Part shown: piece by piece, positions 50,937 through 58,320 of the stretch
How positions within the stretch are numbered: position 1 is the first letter of the stretch
Layout of the letters: each line of letters starts with the position of its first letter
Assembly: GCA_016789955.1 (NCBI GenBank)
Contig: JAEUPB010000074.1
Span: 38,098 to 102,097, forward strand
DNA from: Rubrivivax sp.
Lineage (GTDB): Bacteria > Pseudomonadota > Gammaproteobacteria > Burkholderiales > Burkholderiaceae_C
Reading direction: 5' to 3'
DNA: 64,000 nt
Program-made: the position numbers and the translations under genes
The notes under the pieces: generated by a model
Told to the model about the DNA's origin: nothing
Databases searched by the model: none
What the model saw: only the letters and a program-made list of their open reading frames with translations

Positions 50937-51323
50937 CTACTCGAAGTCCTCTTCGAGTGGCGTGTCGCCTTGCACCTGGGCCTTGAGCTTGTGGCTGGCG
51001 TGGAAGGTGACGACGTTGCGCGCCTTGATCGGAATCGCCTCGCCGGTGCGCGGATTGCGCCCTGGGCGGGACGCCTTGCGGCGGATGTTGAAGTTGCCGA
51101 AGCCCGACAGCTTCACGTCGCTGCCGGACTGCAGCGCGTCGTGGACGATCACGAAGAACGCCTCCACCATGTCCTTGGATTCGCGCTTGTTCAGGCCCAG
51201 CCGGTCGAACAGCAACTCGGCCAGTTCGGCCTTGGTCAGCGTGGGCGTGTCCAGGGACGCCAGGATCGGCCCGCCCGTGCGGGCCGCGCCGGCTTCGTCA
51301 TCGTCGTCGCGCGCTGGGTTCAT
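50937..51323 (-). CDS. ihfA: Integration host factor alpha subunit
   Basis: 128 residues. The HU/IHF fold is complete: [29 protein letters not shown], then the beta-arm region [38 protein letters not shown] with the intercalating proline in GRNPRTGE. A 25-30-residue N-terminal extension with DDDDE is unusual versus ~100-residue relatives, but a strong GAGGAGGAG upstream of the ATG supports this start. It bends DNA with IhfB. Position after pheT is the classic pheST-ihfA order. Confidence 0.95.
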
Positions 51324-51342
51324 CGCTCCTCCTCCTCGCTCT

Positions 51343-53754
51343 TCACGTCCGCAGCCGGCCGCCGAGCTGCTGCGCCACGCGTTGCACCGCGGCAGCCACC
51401 GTGGTCTCGATGCGCTCGTCGGTCAGCGTCGCGGCGCTGTCGAGCAATTCGAGCCGCACGGCCATGCTGCGCTCGCCCGCGGCGAAGCCCGCCATTTCCC
51501 GGGATGGACGGTACACGTCGAACAGCACCGCACCGCGGATCAGCCCCGAGGCATCGTCGCACAGGCACCGCAGCAGCGCGTCGTGGGTCACGCGTTCGCC
51601 GACGATGATCGCCACGTCGCGCTCGGCCAGCTGCTGGCGCGGCAGCGCCTCGAACGTCGGCACCGGCGCGCCGAGCGCGGCATCGAGCTCCAGCTCGAAC
51701 AGCATCGCCGGGTGCGGCAACTCATAGGCCTGCCGCCAGCGCGGATGCAGCTCGCCGATGTGACCGATGCATCGATCGCCGAGCATCACCGCCGCACAGC
51801 GGCCTGGATGCATCGCCGGGTGCGCGGCCGCCTCGAAGCGCGGCTGCGCGGGCGCCAGCAGCGCCTGCACGTCGCCCTTGACGTCGTAGAAGTCCACCGC
51901 CCGTGCAGGCGTGCCCCACTGCGAAGAGTCGGCCGGGCCGTAGGCGATGCCGCCGATGCGCATCGGCTGCCGCAGGCCCGCCACGCTGCGCTCGCCGTCC
52001 ACCGCGGCAGCGTCCCGCATGAACACGCGCCCGACCTCGAACAGCCGCACGCGATCGGCGCGGCGCGCGAGGTTGCGCTTGAGCGCATCGACGAGGCTGC
52101 CCACGAGGCTCGACCGCATCACCGCCAGCGGCGCCGCGATCGGATTCAGCACGCGGATCGGGTCGGCGTTGCCGGCCAGCTCGTGCTCCCAGCGCTCCTC
52201 GACGAAGCTGAAGGTGATGATCTCCTGATAGTCCAGGTCCGCGAGCCGATGCCGCAGCGCATAGGGGCCGCGCCGCTGCTCGCGGCGCATGCGCGCCGTG
52301 ACCGGCGCCTCGGGCGGCGTGTCGGGCAGGCGGTCGTAGCCGACGACGCGGATCACCTCCTCGATCAGGTCCTCCTCGATCGTCAGGTCAAAGCGCCAGC
52401 TCGGCGGCGTCACGTGCAGCACGCCGTCGCCTTCGGTGCACGGCAGGCCCAGGCGCCGAAACACGTCGACGCATTGCGCCTGCGTCACCGGCAGGCCGAT
52501 CACCTTCGATGCGCGCGCGACGCGCAGCGTGACCGGCTTGCGCTCGGGCAACCGCGTCACCTGGTCGTCCATCGGGCCGGCCTCGCCGCCGCAGATCTGC
52601 TGGATCAAGGCGGTGATGCGCTCGATGTGTTCGACCGTCAGCGCCGGGTCGACTCCGCGCTCGAAGCGATGGCCGGCGTCGGTGGAGAACGCGTAGCGGC
52701 GCGAGCGCCCGGCCACTGCATCCGGCCACCAGAACGCGGCCTCGACGTAGACGTTGCGCGTGTCGTCAGACACGGCCGTGGCCTGCCCGCCCATGATGCC
52801 GGCCAGCGACTCGACGGCCTGCGCGTCGGCGATCACGCCGACCTGCTCGTCCAGCTCGATGGTGTTGCCGTTCAGCAGCTCCAGCGTCTCGCCCTTCGCG
52901 GCCCAGCGCACGACGAGCTTCTCGTGGATCTTGTCGAGGTCGAAGATGTGCGACGGGCGACCGTACTCGAACATCACGTAGTTCGAGATGTCCACGAGCG
53001 CGGTGACGCTGCGCTGGCCGCAGCGCGCCAGCCGGTCGACCATCCACGACGGCGTCTTCGCGGTCGTGTCGACGCCGCGCACGATGCGCCCCGAGAAGCG
53101 CCCGCACAGCTCGGCGGCGCGGATCTCCACCGGCAGCCGCTGCTCGTGGGCCACGGCCACCGGCTCGAACGCCGGCGTCTTCAGGGGCACCCCGGTGAGC
53201 GCCGAGACCTCGCGCGCGACGCCGTAGACGCTGAGCACGTGCCCGAGGTTCGGCGTGAGCTTCAGCGTGAAGATCGTGTCGTCGAGCTTCAGCCACTGGC
53301 GCAGGTCGGTGCCGACCGGCGCATCGGCGGCGAGTTCGAGCAGACCGCCGTGGTCGTCGGCGATCTTCAGCTCGCGCGCCGAGCACAGCATGCCGCGGCT
53401 CTCGACGCCGCGCAGCTGGCCCACGCCGATGGCGAACGGCCGGCCGTCGTCGCCCGCCGGCAGTTGGGCACCCACGACGGCCAGCGGCGCCTTCAGGCCG
53501 ACGCGCGCATTGGGCGCGCCGCAGACGATCTGCAAGCGCTCGCGGCCGGTGTCGACCTGGCACACGCGCAGCCGATCGGCCGAGGGATGCGGCACGGCCT
53601 CGACGATCTCGGCCACGACGACGCCGGAGAACGGCGGCGCCACCGGGTGGAGGTCCTCGACCTCCATGCCCGACAGCGTCAGCAGGTCGGCCAGTTCGCG
53701 CGTCGACAGCGGGGGGTCGCAGAACTCGCGCAACCAGGATTCGGGGAATTGCAT
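51343..53754 (-). CDS. pheT: Phenylalanyl-tRNA synthetase beta subunit
   Basis: 803 residues, full length. An N-terminal tRNA-binding OB domain ([27 protein letters not shown]), the B3/B4 editing region, B5 domains and the catalytic-like core are followed by the ferredoxin-like anticodon-binding domain ([26 protein letters not shown]). It forms the alpha2-beta2 enzyme with PheS and hydrolyses mischarged Tyr-tRNAPhe. It lies 22 bp after pheS, and ihfA starts 19 bp further on. Confidence 0.97.
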
Positions 53755-53776
53755 GGTTCGTCCGGGAGAGGGCGGT

Positions 53777-54832
53777 TCAGCGGAACTGGGTCAGGAAGCG
53801 CAGGTCGCTCTCGAAGAACAGGCGCAGGTCGTCGACGCCGTATCGCAGCATCGTGAGCCGGTCAGGCCCCATCCCGAAGGCGAAGCCGATGTAGCGCTCG
53901 GGATCCAGCCCGAAGTTGCGCACGACGTTCGGATGCACCTGGCCCGAGCCGGCCACCTCAAGCCAGCGCCCCTTGTTCGGGCCGCTCGCGAACGCGATGT
54001 CGATCTCGGCCGACGGCTCGGTGAACGGGAAGTACGAGGGGCGGAAGCGCACGTCCAGCGCATCGGTCTCGAAGAACTGGCGCAGGAAGTCGGAGAACAC
54101 CGCCTTCAGGTCCTTGAACGCGATGTGTTCGCCGATCCACAGCCCTTCGCACTGGTGGAACATCGGCGAGTGCGTGGCGTCGCTGTCGACGCGGTAGGTG
54201 CGCCCGGGCGCGATGACGCGGATCTCGGGGATCGGGCGCCCCTGCGCCAGCGCCTCGGCGTGCCGCGCAGCGTGTGAGCGCGCGTAGCGCACCTGCATCG
54301 GGCTGGTGTGGGGGCGCAGATTCAGCCATCGACCCTCGGCATCCTTCAGGTCCACGTAGAAGGTGTCCTGCATCGACCGAGCCGGATGGTTCTCCGGGTT
54401 GTTCAGCGCGGTGAAGCTCATCCAGTCGGTCTCGATCTCGGGGCCGTCGGCGACGTCGAAGCCCATCGAGCCGAAGATCGCCTCGATGCGCTCCATCGTG
54501 CGCGAGACGGGATGCAGGCCGCCGGTGCCGCGATGCCGGCCGGGCAGCGTGACGTCCAGTGCCTCGGCGCGCAGTTGCGCGTCGAGCTCCTGCGCGGCCA
54601 GCGCGTCGCGGCGCGCCTGCAGCGCGGCCTCCACCTGCTGCTTGGCGCGGTTGATCTCGGCGCCGCGCGCCTTCTTCTCCTCGGGCGGCAACTGTGCCAG
54701 GCCCTTGAGCAGCTCCGTCACGCGGCCGCTCTTGCCCAGGAAGCGCGCCTTGGCGTTCTCCAGTTCGGCCGGGTTGGGCGCCTCGGCGAACGAGGCCGCC
54801 GCGGCGTGCACGAGCGTGTCGAGATCGGTCAT
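53777..54832 (-). CDS. pheS: Phenylalanyl-tRNA synthetase alpha subunit
   Basis: 351 residues from the ATG at 54832. An N-terminal coiled coil (about 10-100) is followed by the class II catalytic core: motif 1 ([19 protein letters not shown]), motif 2 ([29 protein letters not shown]), and motif 3 ([24 protein letters not shown]). It activates phenylalanine. A hairpin with T-run precedes it (54845-54877), so part of its transcription may be controlled by attenuation between rplT and pheS. No Phe-rich leader peptide was found there. Confidence 0.97.
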
Positions 54833-54844
54833 GAATGCTTCGGA

Positions 54845-54877
54845 CAAAGAAAAAGGCCGCCCCGAGGTGACGGCCTT
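54845..54877 (-). terminator. Terminator/attenuator between rplT and pheS
   Basis: On the minus strand AAGGCCG (54877-54871) pairs with CGGCCTT (54859-54853) and is followed by TTTCTTTG. An 8-bp GCCGGCGC/GCGCCGGC hairpin lies just upstream near the rplT stop. It should reduce read-through into pheST. Confidence 0.7.
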
Positions 54878-54924
54878 CGTGAGACTCGATGCGTGCCGGC
54901 GCACCGGGCGCCGGCAGAGTCACA

Positions 54925-55281
54925 TCAAGCGAGCTGGGCCTTCACCTTGGCGACGATGCTGCCAAAAGCAGCCGGATCGTTGACGGCCATGTCGGCCAGC
55001 ACCTTGCGGTCGATCTCGATCTGCGCCTTCTTCAGGCCGGCCATGAACTTGCTGTAGGTGACGCCGAGTTCGCGCGACGCCGCGTTGATGCGGGCGATCC
55101 AGAGCTGGCGGAACACCCGCTTGCGGGTGCGGCGATCGCGGTAGGCGTACTGCCCCGCCTTCATCACCGCCTGCTTGGCGATGCGGAAGACGTTCTTGCG
55201 GCGGCCGCGGAAGCCCTTGGCGAGGGCGAGGATCTTCTTGTGGCGGGCGTGTGCGGTGACACCGCGCTTGACGCGAGGCAT
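54925..55281 (-). CDS. rplT: Ribosomal protein L20
   Basis: 118 residues, standard length. The very basic N-terminus ([39 protein letters not shown]) and the globular C-terminus ([37 protein letters not shown]) are canonical. It is an early 23S rRNA assembly protein and, in enteric bacteria, represses its own operon. The order infC-rpmI-rplT-pheST is conserved. Confidence 0.98.
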
Positions 55282-55296
55282 GGGCGGCTCCCCCGA

Positions 55297-55500
55297 TTAC
55301 AGGCCGGCGAATGGCAGCATCGCCGCCATGTGGCCCATGTTGGTCTCGTGCACGTTGGCCGCACCGCGCAGGTGGCGCTTGCGGGTGGTGCTCTTCTTCG
55401 TGAGGATGTGGCGCTTGAACGCCTGACCGCGCTTGACGGTACCCCCCGGGCGGACGCGGAAGCGCTTCTTCGCTCCGCTCTTGGTCTTCATCTTGGGCAT
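55297..55500 (-). CDS. rpmI: Ribosomal protein L35
   Basis: 67 residues: [20 protein letters not shown], then [24 protein letters not shown] and a short hydrophobic tail. It is a small basic large-subunit protein. It lies between infC and rplT with 15 bp to rplT. The 106 bp between infC and rpmI hold no gene; structures there may serve translational control but none was clear. Confidence 0.97.
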
Positions 55501-55606
55501 CTGTAGCCACTCCTTCTAGGTTGCCTGCACGGGCGACCCCGGGTCCGGGGTGCTTGACGGCCTGTACCGGCTTCTTTGAAACCTGCTCTTCGAACCTGCC
55601 GGCGCC

Positions 55607-56155
55607 CTACTTCCGCTTGGGCGCCAGCACCATCACCATCTGCCGACCTTCGAGCTTGGGCATGTGCTCGACGACGGCCACGTCGGCCAGTTCATCACGG
55701 ATGCGCTCGAGCATGCGCATGCCGATGTCCTGGTGGGTGATCTCGCGGCCCCGGAACCTCAGCGTCACCTTGCCCTTGTCGCCGTCCTCGGCGATGAAGC
55801 GGCGCAGGTTGCGCATCTTGATGTTGTAGTCACCGTCGTCCGTGCCCGGACGGAACTTGACTTCCTTGACCTCGATGATCTTCTGCTTGGACTTGGCTTC
55901 CGCCGCCTTCTTCTGCTCCTGGTACTTGAACTTGCCGTAGTCCATCAGCCGGCATACCGGGGGATCCGCGGTGGCGGCGATCTCGACGAGATCGACGTCC
56001 AGTTCGCCCGCCATGCGCAACGCATCCATGATGCTGACGATGCCCAAGGGCTCGTTGTCGGGGTTCATCAGGCGCACCTGCGGGGCCATGATCTCCCGGT
56101 TCAGCCGGTGCTTGCGTTCCGCATTCGGCGTGCGGCGGTCCATGAAGGTAGCGAT
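55607..56155 (-). CDS. infC: Translation initiation factor IF-3, probable ATC start
   Basis: 182 residues if started at ATC (56155-56153), 178 if at the ATG 56143. AAGGAG lies 8 bases before the ATC but 20 before the ATG, so ATC is favoured. Rare start codons in infC are the known basis of autocontrol by IF-3. The protein is canonical: [48 protein letters not shown] and the C-terminal [21 protein letters not shown]. It binds 30S and monitors the start codon. thrS is 78 bp upstream. Confidence 0.95.
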
Positions 56156-56233
56156 GGTGGCAACTCCTTGCGGCAACCCGAAGGCAACACGGGTGCTCGA
56201 TATCCGGACGAAGTGAGCGTCGGGAGGGTTCCG

Positions 56234-58141
56234 TCAGACCTTGCGGGAGACGTCGTCCATGAGCTTCGCGGTGAAGTCCTGGAGCGCCATCACGCCGAGA
56301 TCCTGGTTTCCCCGGGCGCGCACGGCAACGGCCCCGTTTGCCTTCTCCTTGTCGCCCACGACGAGGATGTACGGGACCTTTTGCATCGAATGCTCGCGGA
56401 TTTTATAACCAATCTTGTCGGCGCGCAGGTCCGCCTGAGCCCTAACGCCTTGTTTTTGCAGCGTTTTCACCACCCCATTTGCGTAGTCGGCGGTGTTTTC
56501 GCTGATGCAGGCCACCACCACCTGCACCGGCGCCAGCCATGCGGGCAGCGCCCCGGCGTGCTGCTCGATCAGGATGCCGATGAATCGCTCGAGGCTGCCG
56601 ACGATGGCCCGGTGCAGCATCACCGGGTGCGCGCGGCCGCTCGTCTCGGTGACGTACTCGCCGCCCAGCCGCTCGGCCGTGTTGAAGTCGACCTGCATCG
56701 TGCCGCACTGCCATTCGCGGCCGATGGCGTCCTTCAGCGTGTACTCGATCTTCGGGCCGTAGAACGCGCCGTCGGCGGGCGACACGACGAACTCGCAGCC
56801 CGAGCGCCGCAGCGACTCCATCAGCGCGTGTTCGGACTTGTCCCACAGCGCGTCGGAGCCCACGCGCTTCTCGGGCCGCGTGGCCACCTTGTAGATGATC
56901 TCGGTGAAGCCGAAGTCGCGGTAGACCTTCTGCAGCAGCTCCGTGTAGGCCACGCACTCGTCGAGGATCTGGTCCTCCAGGCAGAAGATGTGCCCGTCGT
57001 CCTGCGTGAAGCCGCGCACGCGCATGATGCCGTGCAGCGCACCGCTGGGCTCGTTGCGGTGGCACTGCCCGAACTCGCCGTAGCGCAGCGGCAGGTCGCG
57101 GTAGCTGCGCATCTGGCTCTTGAAGATGAGCACGTGACCCGGGCAGTTCATCGGCTTGAGCGCGTAGTCGCGCTTCTCCGACTCCGTGGTGAACATGTTC
57201 TCCCGGTAGTTCTGCCAGTGCCCCGTCTTCTCCCACAGGTTGCGGTCGAGGATCTGCGGGCCCTTGACCTCCAGGTAGCCGTTGTCGCGGTAGACGGCGC
57301 GCATGTACTGCTCGACCTGCTGCCAGACCGTCCAGCCCCTCGGGTGCCAGAAGACCAAGCCCGGCGCCGTCTCTTCCATGTGGAACAGGTCGAGCTCGCG
57401 GCCGAGGCGCCGATGGTCGCGCTTCTCGGCCTCCTCGAGCATCGTCAGGTACTTCTGCAGTTCGTCCTTCGTCGCCCAGGCTGTGCCGTAGACGCGCTGC
57501 AGTTGCTCATTGGCCTGGTCGCCGCGCCAGTAGGCACCGGCAACCTTCATCAGCTTGAAGTGCTTGAGGCGCCCCGTGCTGGGCACGTGGGGGCCGCGGC
57601 AAAGGTCCTCGAAGCCGCCCTCGCGATACAGGCTCACGTCCTCGCCTGCAGGGATGCTGCCGATGATCTCGGCCTTGTAGTGCTCGCCCAGGCCCTTGAA
57701 GTAGGCCACGGCCTCGTCGCGAGGCAGCACGCGGCGCACCACCGGCTCGTTCTTCGCGGCCAGCTCCGTCATGCGCTGCTCGATGGCCGCGAGGTCCTCG
57801 GGCGTGAACGGGCGCTTGTAGGCGAAGTCGTAGTAGAAGCCGTTGTCGACGACCGGGCCGATCGTCACCTGCGCTTCGGGGAACAGCTCCTTGACGGCAT
57901 AGGCCAGCAGGTGCGCCGTCGAGTGCCGGATGATCTCCAGGCCGTCGGGTTCCTTCTCCGTGACGATGGCCAGTTGCGCGTCGGCCTCCAGCCGGTGCGA
58001 GAGGTCGACCAGGCGGCCGTCGACACGTGCGGCCAGCGCCTGCTTCGCCAGGCCAGGGCCGATCGAGGCGGCGACATCGGCGGCCGTCAGCGGGCCGGGG
58101 TACTCACGCCGGGAACCATCCGGCAACGTGATCGAGATCAT
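56234..58141 (-). CDS. thrS: Threonyl-tRNA synthetase
   Basis: 635 residues from the ATG at 58141 (GGAG upstream). Domain order is TGS (residues ~1-60, [20 protein letters not shown]), editing domain with the metal motif [13 protein letters not shown], class II core with zinc ligands ([28 protein letters not shown]) and an anticodon-binding C-terminus. It charges tRNAThr and edits Ser. Upstream lie a threonine-codon leader peptide and attenuator-like hairpins, so expression is probably tuned by threonyl-tRNA supply. It heads the thrS-infC-rpmI-rplT-pheST block. Confidence 0.97.
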
Positions 58142-58151
58142 GGTTTCGACT

Positions 58152-58219
58152 CCAGAAAGCAGCAAAGCGCGGGGGTGAGCCGCGCTTTGCCTGGGAAAGG
58201 TCGTGGCCGCGCGGCCTCA
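58152..58219 (-). promoter_or_regulatory. Candidate thrS attenuator (antiterminator and terminator arms)
   Basis: Terminator: GCAAAGCGCG (58190-58181) pairs perfectly with CGCGCTTTGC (58171-58162), followed by TGCTTTCT before the thrS start. Antiterminator: TGAGGCCGCGC (58219-58209), which begins at the leader stop codon, can pair with GCGCGGCTCA (58185-58176) with one bulge, using the 5' arm of the terminator. The two helices exclude each other. A ribosome finishing the leader would cover the first arm and permit termination. One stalled at threonine codons would leave it free. This is inferred from sequence alone. Confidence 0.65.
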
Positions 58220-58270
58220 GCTCGGGGAGGTGTCTCCGAAGAAGCGCGTAGTCCGCGGTGTCATAACCAT
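58217..58270 (-). CDS. Threonine-codon leader peptide of thrS
   Basis: A 17-residue open frame, MVMTPRTTRFFGDTSPS, with a purine-rich GGAAAGG upstream. Four of 17 residues are Thr, encoded by ACA, ACT, ACG and ACC, so every threonine codon is sampled. ACA and ACT are rare in such a GC-rich genome. The stop codon lies at the first antiterminator arm. A leader of this composition just upstream of thrS fits stalling-based sensing of charged tRNAThr. It is too short for any other evidence. Confidence 0.62.
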   Translation of the reverse strand: MVMTPRTTRFFGDTSPS

Positions 58271-58314
58271 CGTGCCTTTCCCGTTCCTTGTCTGGTGAAT
58301 CTTGCGAGGACGCG

Positions 58315-58320
58315 ATTCTA
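58315..58320 (-). promoter_or_regulatory. -10-like element upstream of the thrS leader
   Basis: TAGAAT on the minus strand, overlapping the end of the patatin gene, 45 bases before the leader start. The -35 region is poor, so this is a tentative promoter. Confidence 0.4.

Follow-up and report, generated by a model that had tools for sequence, protein, structure and literature searches.

Which signal sets the expression of thrS in this Rubrivivax sp. genome? The question is raised by a 176-nt region, read directly from the minus strand, that separates a patatin-like ORF (59394-58318; a Pfam Patatin match) from thrS (58141-56234). Both genes lie in the window, i.e., the whole stretch of 64,000 nucleotides that was analysed. 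We propose that the region encodes a classical ribosome-mediated transcription attenuator that senses threonyl-tRNA, and we consider this very probable. The logic of leader-peptide attenuation had been put forward in a sequence-only reading of the same DNA; it is now backed, with the same high confidence, by the conservation of a leader motif, an excess of threonine codons, the comparison of antiterminator arms with their own and with swapped terminators, and a model of ribosome position.

Organization of the leader region

Read from 5' to 3', the region contains a TAGAAT box, the Shine-Dalgarno sequence GGGAAAGG, the leader ORF, the arm TGAGGCCGCGC, a C/T-rich stretch, a hairpin, the tail TGCTTTCT and a GGAG that precedes thrS (Table 1). 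The longest reading of the ORF (58270-58217, minus strand) comprises 17 codons, ATG GTT ATG ACA CCG CGG ACT ACG CGC TTC TTC GGA GAC ACC TCC CCG AGC TGA, and direct reading confirms that all four synonymous threonine codons occur in it, as the sequence-only reading had stated. Its choice of start codon is given up here, since relatives conserve the second ATG (58264), from which the frame reads M-T-P-R-T-T-... over 15 codons with four threonines. A small ORF whose regulatory codons specify the pathway's own amino acid is thus in place, its translation being predicted.

Between the leader ORF and the first gene lies an intrinsic terminator, which reads GCAAAGCGCGG-CTCACCC-CCGCGCTTTGC. Its stem, earlier described as a perfect one of 10 bp, actually has 11 bp (58190-58180 with 58172-58162) around a loop of 7. 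The leader folds more stably than expected by chance (z = -3.07; 0 of 200 shuffles as stable). The T-containing stretch that had been noted before thrS is present, but it is interrupted (TTTGCTGCTTTCT, with 5 T in 9 bases): of 99 relatives, 51 have 8 T among the 9 bases that follow the stem, and 11, the window included, have no more than 5. Termination may therefore be partial in the window. A generic terminator scan reported none at this hairpin, which it may miss since a G-U pair appears to extend the stem beyond the T-rich window.

The interrupted T-tract, which is shared by further members of the genus whose stem is of an extended AAAGCGCGG type, would suit a translational form of leader-peptide attenuation, in which the same leader and helices determine the access of ribosomes to the thrS start. 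We regard this form as quite improbable. The thrS Shine-Dalgarno sequence (58153-58150) is located outside the hairpin, which favours transcriptional over translational control, and both the 8-in-9 T runs of the 51 relatives and the presence of a terminator within 150 nt of thrS in 69 of 109 upstreams from across the order (see below) argue against it.

For transcriptional attenuation, the reading that we prefer, a mutually exclusive antiterminator is also present. The arm TGAGGCCGCGC (58219-58209) begins with the leader stop codon (TGA, 58219-58217) and forms a duplex of 10 pairs with one bulged G with GCGCGGCTCA (58185-58176) on the 5' side of the terminator, which refines the pairing that had been claimed. 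Compared with shuffles, the duplex energies give a mean z of -1.2 for region 1 with region 2, a modest gain, and of -1.8 for region 2 with region 3. In the ribosome-free minimum-energy fold, the leader Shine-Dalgarno sequence pairs with CCTTTCCC (58200-58193), located between region 2 and the terminator, while the terminator stands alone.

In 78 of 102 leaders, a -10-like box, defined as TANNNT agreeing with TATAAT in 4 or more of its 6 bases, precedes the leader ATG by 48-56 nt; 20 shuffled sets reach a mean of 1.35 and a maximum of 3 of 102. Enough upstream sequence for this count was available for 102 of the 103 unique leaders. With at least 5 of 6 matches, the box is found in 51 of 102 leaders (shuffled maximum 1). 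As the box is placed before the leader in most relatives, the transcript most likely includes the leader. A generic sigma-70 promoter scan reported no promoter at the leader region. The stop codon of the patatin-like ORF (58318-58320) sits within the predicted box TAGAAT, and the generic scan gave no terminator between this ORF and the leader, so that read-through into the leader is possible.

Downstream, gene order and spacing suggest that thrS-infC-rpmI-rplT-pheS-pheT-ihfA form one operon. NCBIfam matches agree with the infC, rpmI, rplT and pheST genes that the sequence-only reading had placed there and add ihfA; a MerR-type gene comes after ihfA.

Table 1. Features of the leader region and the downstream genes, with the basis of each assignment
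Feature	Coordinates	Strand	Basis
-10 box TAGAAT of a predicted promoter for leader and operon	58315..58320	-	sequence; 56 nt before leader ATG
Leader Shine-Dalgarno region GGGAAAGG	58275..58282	-	sequence; fold; A-A-A-G-G columns (nearly) invariant
Leader ORF from the conserved start, M T P R T T R F F G D T S P S stop	58217..58264	-	sequence and conservation
Small hairpin YGGU-UAUGAC-ACCG around the leader start codon	58256..58269	-	consensus fold of 80 leaders
Region 1: the P-R-T-T codons and those after them, able to pair with region 2	58241..58258	-	duplex
Region 2: antiterminator arm TGAGGCCGCGC, first bases are the leader stop codon	58209..58219	-	duplex with 58185-58176; ribosome-position model
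Region 3: terminator 5' arm GCAAAGCGCGG	58180..58190	-	sequence, fold, duplex
Region 4: terminator 3' arm CCGCGCTTTGC	58162..58172	-	sequence, fold, duplex
T-containing tail TGCTTTCT, interrupted	58154..58161	-	sequence; longer T run in most of 99 stem-bearing relatives
thrS Shine-Dalgarno GGAG, outside the hairpin	58150..58153	-	sequence; 8 nt from thrS ATG
thrS, threonine--tRNA ligase, regulated gene	56234..58141	-	TIGR00418, 714 bits
infC, rpmI, rplT, pheS, pheT, ihfA	50937..56176	-	NCBIfam matches, coordinates

Conservation of the leader among relatives

The leader was followed in two sets of thrS upstreams. The named set (n = 80) consists of relatives titled mostly Burkholderiales, Rubrivivax, Piscinibacter, Roseateles, Hydrogenophaga and other Comamonadaceae, and the genus set of 65 genomes, including the window's own; a few identical leaders are shared by both. 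From 74 genus genomes with a thrS match, 70 upstreams were taken; in two other genomes the hit lacked the thrS start, and G054 and G071, whose hits cover it, were left out, as was a second, 56%-identical thrS copy in G011. Five of the 70 upstreams, whose start was missed by tblastn, were recovered by coordinates and stand outside the counts over 65, 103, 108 and 146; all five carry the motif. This motif covers 13 bases of the leader start, leaves codon third positions free and allows one mismatch. The genus upstreams carry it in 64 of 65 cases and the named ones in 43 of 80, compared to 44 of 1460 shuffled upstreams. The 80 named and 65 genus upstreams and the window, counted again, give 146 upstreams, 108 of them with the motif (103 unique leaders) and 38 without it. 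The 103 were reduced to an alignment of 80 leaders by redundancy, length and stem presence.

The motif search and the terminator rule partly select for the features that then appear as conserved. Accordingly, threonine at positions 2 and 5 in all 103 unique leaders is built into the motif, and the conserved start codon (ATG in 102, GTG in 1) has its TG in the motif. Threonine at position 6, which the motif leaves free, is kept in 82 of 103. The alignment of relatives that the sequence-only reading had called for thus shows in-frame threonine codons to be retained, although 38 of 146 upstreams are without the motif. An NTG two codons upstream of the conserved start is not conserved among relatives. 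The leader peptide has 12 or 13 residues in 69 of 103 unique leaders and four or five threonines in 76, and a GCGCGG or CGCGG stem is present by rule in 99 of them.

The silent positions of the start region are conserved as well. With third bases free in the motif, codon 2 is ACA in 102 and codon 5 is ACT in 98 of 103 leaders, and among the 106 threonine codons of the window's thrS, infC, rpmI, rplT, pheS, pheT and ihfA, ACA occurs once and ACT never. The hairpin around the start codon (alignment columns 33-46) has its inner three pairs unchanged in 80 of 80 leaders, silent positions included. Such near-invariance exceeds coding needs and may reflect the pairing of region 1, the start-codon hairpin or the rare codons.

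Within this close group, covariation is uninformative since the helices barely vary: RNAalifold on the 80 leaders gives a covariation term of -0.13, and 2 of 12 pairs show one double change. Covariation of the helices, named beforehand as a test of the proposal, is indicated by the comparison across families instead. Terminator stems differ between families with pairing kept and with several pair types per position, in a set where the detection rule required pairing. E.g., the second pair from the T side is TA in 20, CG in 7, GC in 5, TG in 3 and AT in 2 of 37 order-wide leaders; the own-versus-swapped comparison of arms described below points in the same direction.

Some named relatives carry leaders that have diverged, as recognized by eye: Achromobacter (...ARTTTRNFRPMSR), Bordetella petrii (...TRTTTGNFRPMSR) and Pandoraea (MFMIARTFTVVKVRR). 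In 13 of the 38 upstreams without the motif (L025, L026, L029, L032, L034, L040, L041, L042, L045, L047, L052, L062 and L075), no more than 60 nt separate the terminator from a -10-like box, so that a leader ORF has little space. There, the sensing part has apparently been lost and the terminator kept.

Ribosome position and the choice between helices

Sequence and computation establish the parts of the leader, their conservation and a folding logic with three states. The specificity of the antiterminator arm was assessed with 16-base windows around the leader stop codon, for which the pairing energy with the terminator 5' arm was calculated in the 37 order-wide leaders. True partners have mean energies of about -5.8 to -7.0 kcal/mol far upstream and of -8.8 kcal/mol at the stop codon; partners exchanged between families have -6.1 to -6.7 and -8.0 kcal/mol at these places. 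As swapped partners dip too, part of the dip at the stop is due to composition. When the best window between -9 and +18 is taken, leaders pair with their own terminator at -12.06 and with swapped ones at -10.51 kcal/mol; none of the 20 swap rounds came up to the true pairing (range -11.21 to -10.03), and in 25 of 37 leaders the own terminator pairs more strongly than the mean of that leader's swaps.

The three states were modeled with a partition function in which the ribosome masks the whole RNA as far as 12 nt beyond the start of the A-site codon; the model ignores kinetics and pseudoknots, and its footprint is approximate. For the window, the modeled probability of the terminator is 0.99 both without a ribosome and with one at the stop, and falls to 0.01 when the A site holds a threonine codon. 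The computational fold that had been suggested as a check thus reproduces the alternation of terminator and antiterminator in the window. The probability does not exceed 0.18 for any codon from 2 to 14, and the last sense codon gives 0.98. A modeled stall anywhere at codons 2-14 antiterminates, and specificity for threonine consequently rests on the threonine codons alone. When the 54 nt between codon 7 and the terminator of the window were shuffled, the full switching logic appeared in 2 of 300 cases.

The same logic is graded among relatives. In the 99 leaders of the MTPRTT group, window included, the mean terminator probabilities are 0.84, 0.41 and 0.88 (no ribosome, threonine codon, stop). 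The strict logic is followed by 22% of the 99, against 2% of shuffles, and the difference between stop and threonine codons is larger than 0.2 in 66%, against 19% of shuffles; 34% are not above 0.2, and 2 of 99 switch the wrong way (all threonine codons used). The 37 order-wide leaders are weaker, with means of 0.82, 0.63 and 0.86: the mutually exclusive antiterminator with its arm at the stop codon is weak in many of them, 11 switching by more than 0.2 and 2 the wrong way.

These results bear on the simplest alternative, in which the terminator acts as a constitutive attenuator or is a mere hairpin; expression would be lowered without sensing, and the small ORF would be a remnant or serve to keep ribosomes near. 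The 13 motif-less upstreams with a terminator close to a -10-like box indicate that a terminator alone is tolerated. Nevertheless, threonine codons, stop position and antiterminator arm are retained jointly across families, and the ribosome-position logic is above that of shuffles, which makes constitutive attenuation very improbable.

For a threonine-sensing attenuator, we infer the following course of transcription start, translation, stalling, termination and physiological response. Transcription would start just past TAGAAT, and RNA polymerase would make the leader while a ribosome translates M-T-P-R-T-T-... With ample charged tRNA-Thr, the ribosome would arrive at the stop codon and cover region 2, allowing the GCGCGG hairpin (3:4) to form and transcription to end. 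When threonyl-tRNA is short, the ribosome would stall at the threonine codons, leaving region 2 free to pair with region 3, and transcription would proceed into thrS-infC-rpmI-rplT-pheS-pheT-ihfA. If the leader is not translated at all, region 1 and the Shine-Dalgarno sequence would pair with the segment containing region 2, and the terminator would form.

Spread through the order and other modes of thrS control

The order-wide set comprises 109 thrS upstreams from genomes drawn evenly (from 128 genomes with a match, own included). Upstream ORFs with at least four threonines in seven codons occur in 16.5% of the 109, a few of them implausible leaders, compared to 0.2% of shuffles; with at least three in seven, the values are 33.9% and 7.0%. 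No other amino acid shows an excess of that size at the four-in-seven threshold in these upstreams. Valine has a large excess solely at the lower threshold (47.7% versus 17.6%), which the sequences suggest to be due to a tRNA-Val gene that is often located upstream of thrS. A terminator within 150 nt of thrS, as mentioned above, is present in 69 of 109 upstreams, against 2 of 545 shuffles, and an Arg-Thr upstream ORF with two or more threonines in 44 of 109, against 93 of 545 shuffles. The two are combined in 38 of 109, which represent 23 of 50 family codes, though some of these 38 are due to chance or tRNA read-through (L231 and L247 by eye). In another 31 of 109, the terminator is found without the Arg-Thr ORF; the remaining upstreams have no terminator by rule. 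Clear diverged leaders recognized by eye are MSFRTTTTGTLNQG, MFKRTTTTRISR, MQLNRTTTTS, MAVRTTTTHP and MFRTSTTTQS. A covariance-model scan of 300 order genomes gave matches with E up to 0.01 in 135, position next to thrS being checked for those that coincide with known thrS locations; 42 genomes, own included, reach at least 36 bits, and the others listed are weaker, several matching the terminator part only.

Two other ways of controlling thrS are known. In E. coli, ThrRS binds an anticodon-like hairpin in the thrS operator, a control that is sensed by the protein and acts on translation. The thrS T-box of Firmicutes senses the charging of tRNA-Thr, often at the level of transcription. Rfam release 15, searched at gathering and permissive thresholds, has no family for the leader (best score 15.6 bits versus the 43.9 needed), and the sole match at the gathering cut-off within the window is a tRNA. 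A T-box leader, with its specifier stem I and T-box antiterminator, was rejected as no Rfam T-box match was obtained. The window leader differs from it in that the sensor would be a translating ribosome. An operator of the E. coli type was rejected likewise: the gene controlled is the same, but the CGU-loop hairpin, defined as a TCGTA loop with at least five enclosing pairs, is absent from all 146 genus and named upstreams, the window included.

Beyond the order, in the class (Gammaproteobacteria in GTDB usage), the picture is different. Among the best-matching 28 upstreams outside the order (from 113 class genomes with a match), 12 have a TCGTA-loop hairpin before thrS, e.g., GTGGTCTCTCGTATGGATCAC, against 3 of 280 shuffles. 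These hairpins (L154, L155, L157, L159, L161-L163, L165-L167, L169 and L172) lie 35-63 nt upstream of thrS, in L167 106 nt, and resemble the ThrRS operator of E. coli thrS. Given 12 of 28 in the class versus 0 of 146 and 1 of 109 in the order, the two sensing systems look like alternatives on thrS. That thrS is controlled by a ThrRS-bound operator or a T-box elsewhere, and that no variation is seen in the three inner pairs of the start-codon hairpin YGGU-UAUGAC-ACCG, are points for such a mechanism in the window as well. Against the counts of 0 of 146 and 1 of 109 for the CGU anticodon-like hairpin and the lack of an Rfam match, T-box included, it is nevertheless hardly credible.

A bolder extension of the attenuator model joins both kinds of sensing. 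Here, a threonine leader-peptide attenuator would have replaced the synthetase-bound translational operator of thrS throughout the order, making IF3, L35, L20, PheRS and IHF depend on threonyl-tRNA. In addition, the near-invariant GGTTATGACACCGCG start region, with its start-codon hairpin and two nearly fixed rare threonine codons, would be a second layer of control, e.g., gated leader initiation or binding of ThrRS or tRNA, resulting in a hybrid sensor. We consider this combined proposal unlikely.

The thrABC leader of enteric bacteria (Rfam Thr_leader), a threonine-rich peptide that also contains isoleucine codons and precedes biosynthesis genes, follows the same logic. It shares with the window leader a threonine-rich peptide, a stop near alternative helices and an intrinsic terminator. 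It differs by the biosynthesis genes and the isoleucine codons, and the window leader gives no Rfam covariance match. Control of thrS by a leader peptide as such is already predicted in print: Streptomyces lividans TK24 is reported to have a thrL leader peptide, MKRVRPFLETTPGFVPAR, with two threonines before thrS, for which attenuation is predicted; the leader transcript is leaderless, and a hairpin was found, with no U-rich sequence (PMC8079986). That leader belongs to another phylum and has no peptide resemblance to the window leader that is evident by eye. The window's relatives have in common an antiterminator arm and a terminator followed by a T run, whereas the thrL hairpin is described without a U-rich sequence. 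Among the papers that it covered, our literature search found none on a thrS leader peptide in Burkholderiales, though a 2010 comparative study of aminoacyl-tRNA operons (cited in PMC4833913) may include the group. The main text of PMC2965389 mentions a threonyl-tRNA synthetase once (E. coli) and thrS not at all; its supplementary lists could include thrS.

For one genus and for parts of a large order of bacteria, the leader points to the likely regulator of an essential cluster that encodes threonyl- and phenylalanyl-tRNA synthetases, IF3, two ribosomal proteins and IHF alpha. It would add a third mode of thrS control to the enteric operator and the T-box, and would make thrS a clear example of a gene for which related groups use different sensing systems. 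As it matches nothing in Rfam 15, automatic annotation will miss such leaders; the leader alignment and covariance model would permit a search for further members.

The upstreams also vary in other respects. In many order-wide and class upstreams (e.g., L205, L224, L249, L153), thrS lies directly downstream of a tRNA gene with the anticodon loop TTGACAT, a tRNA-Val by eye. Several families have this tRNA-thrS arrangement with a terminator in between and no leader (L258, L232, L239). In L195, a stretch of about 45 nt (TTTTTTGTTTTTAGCGCGGCGGT...CAGCACTTT) appears, by eye, twice in tandem just past the terminator.
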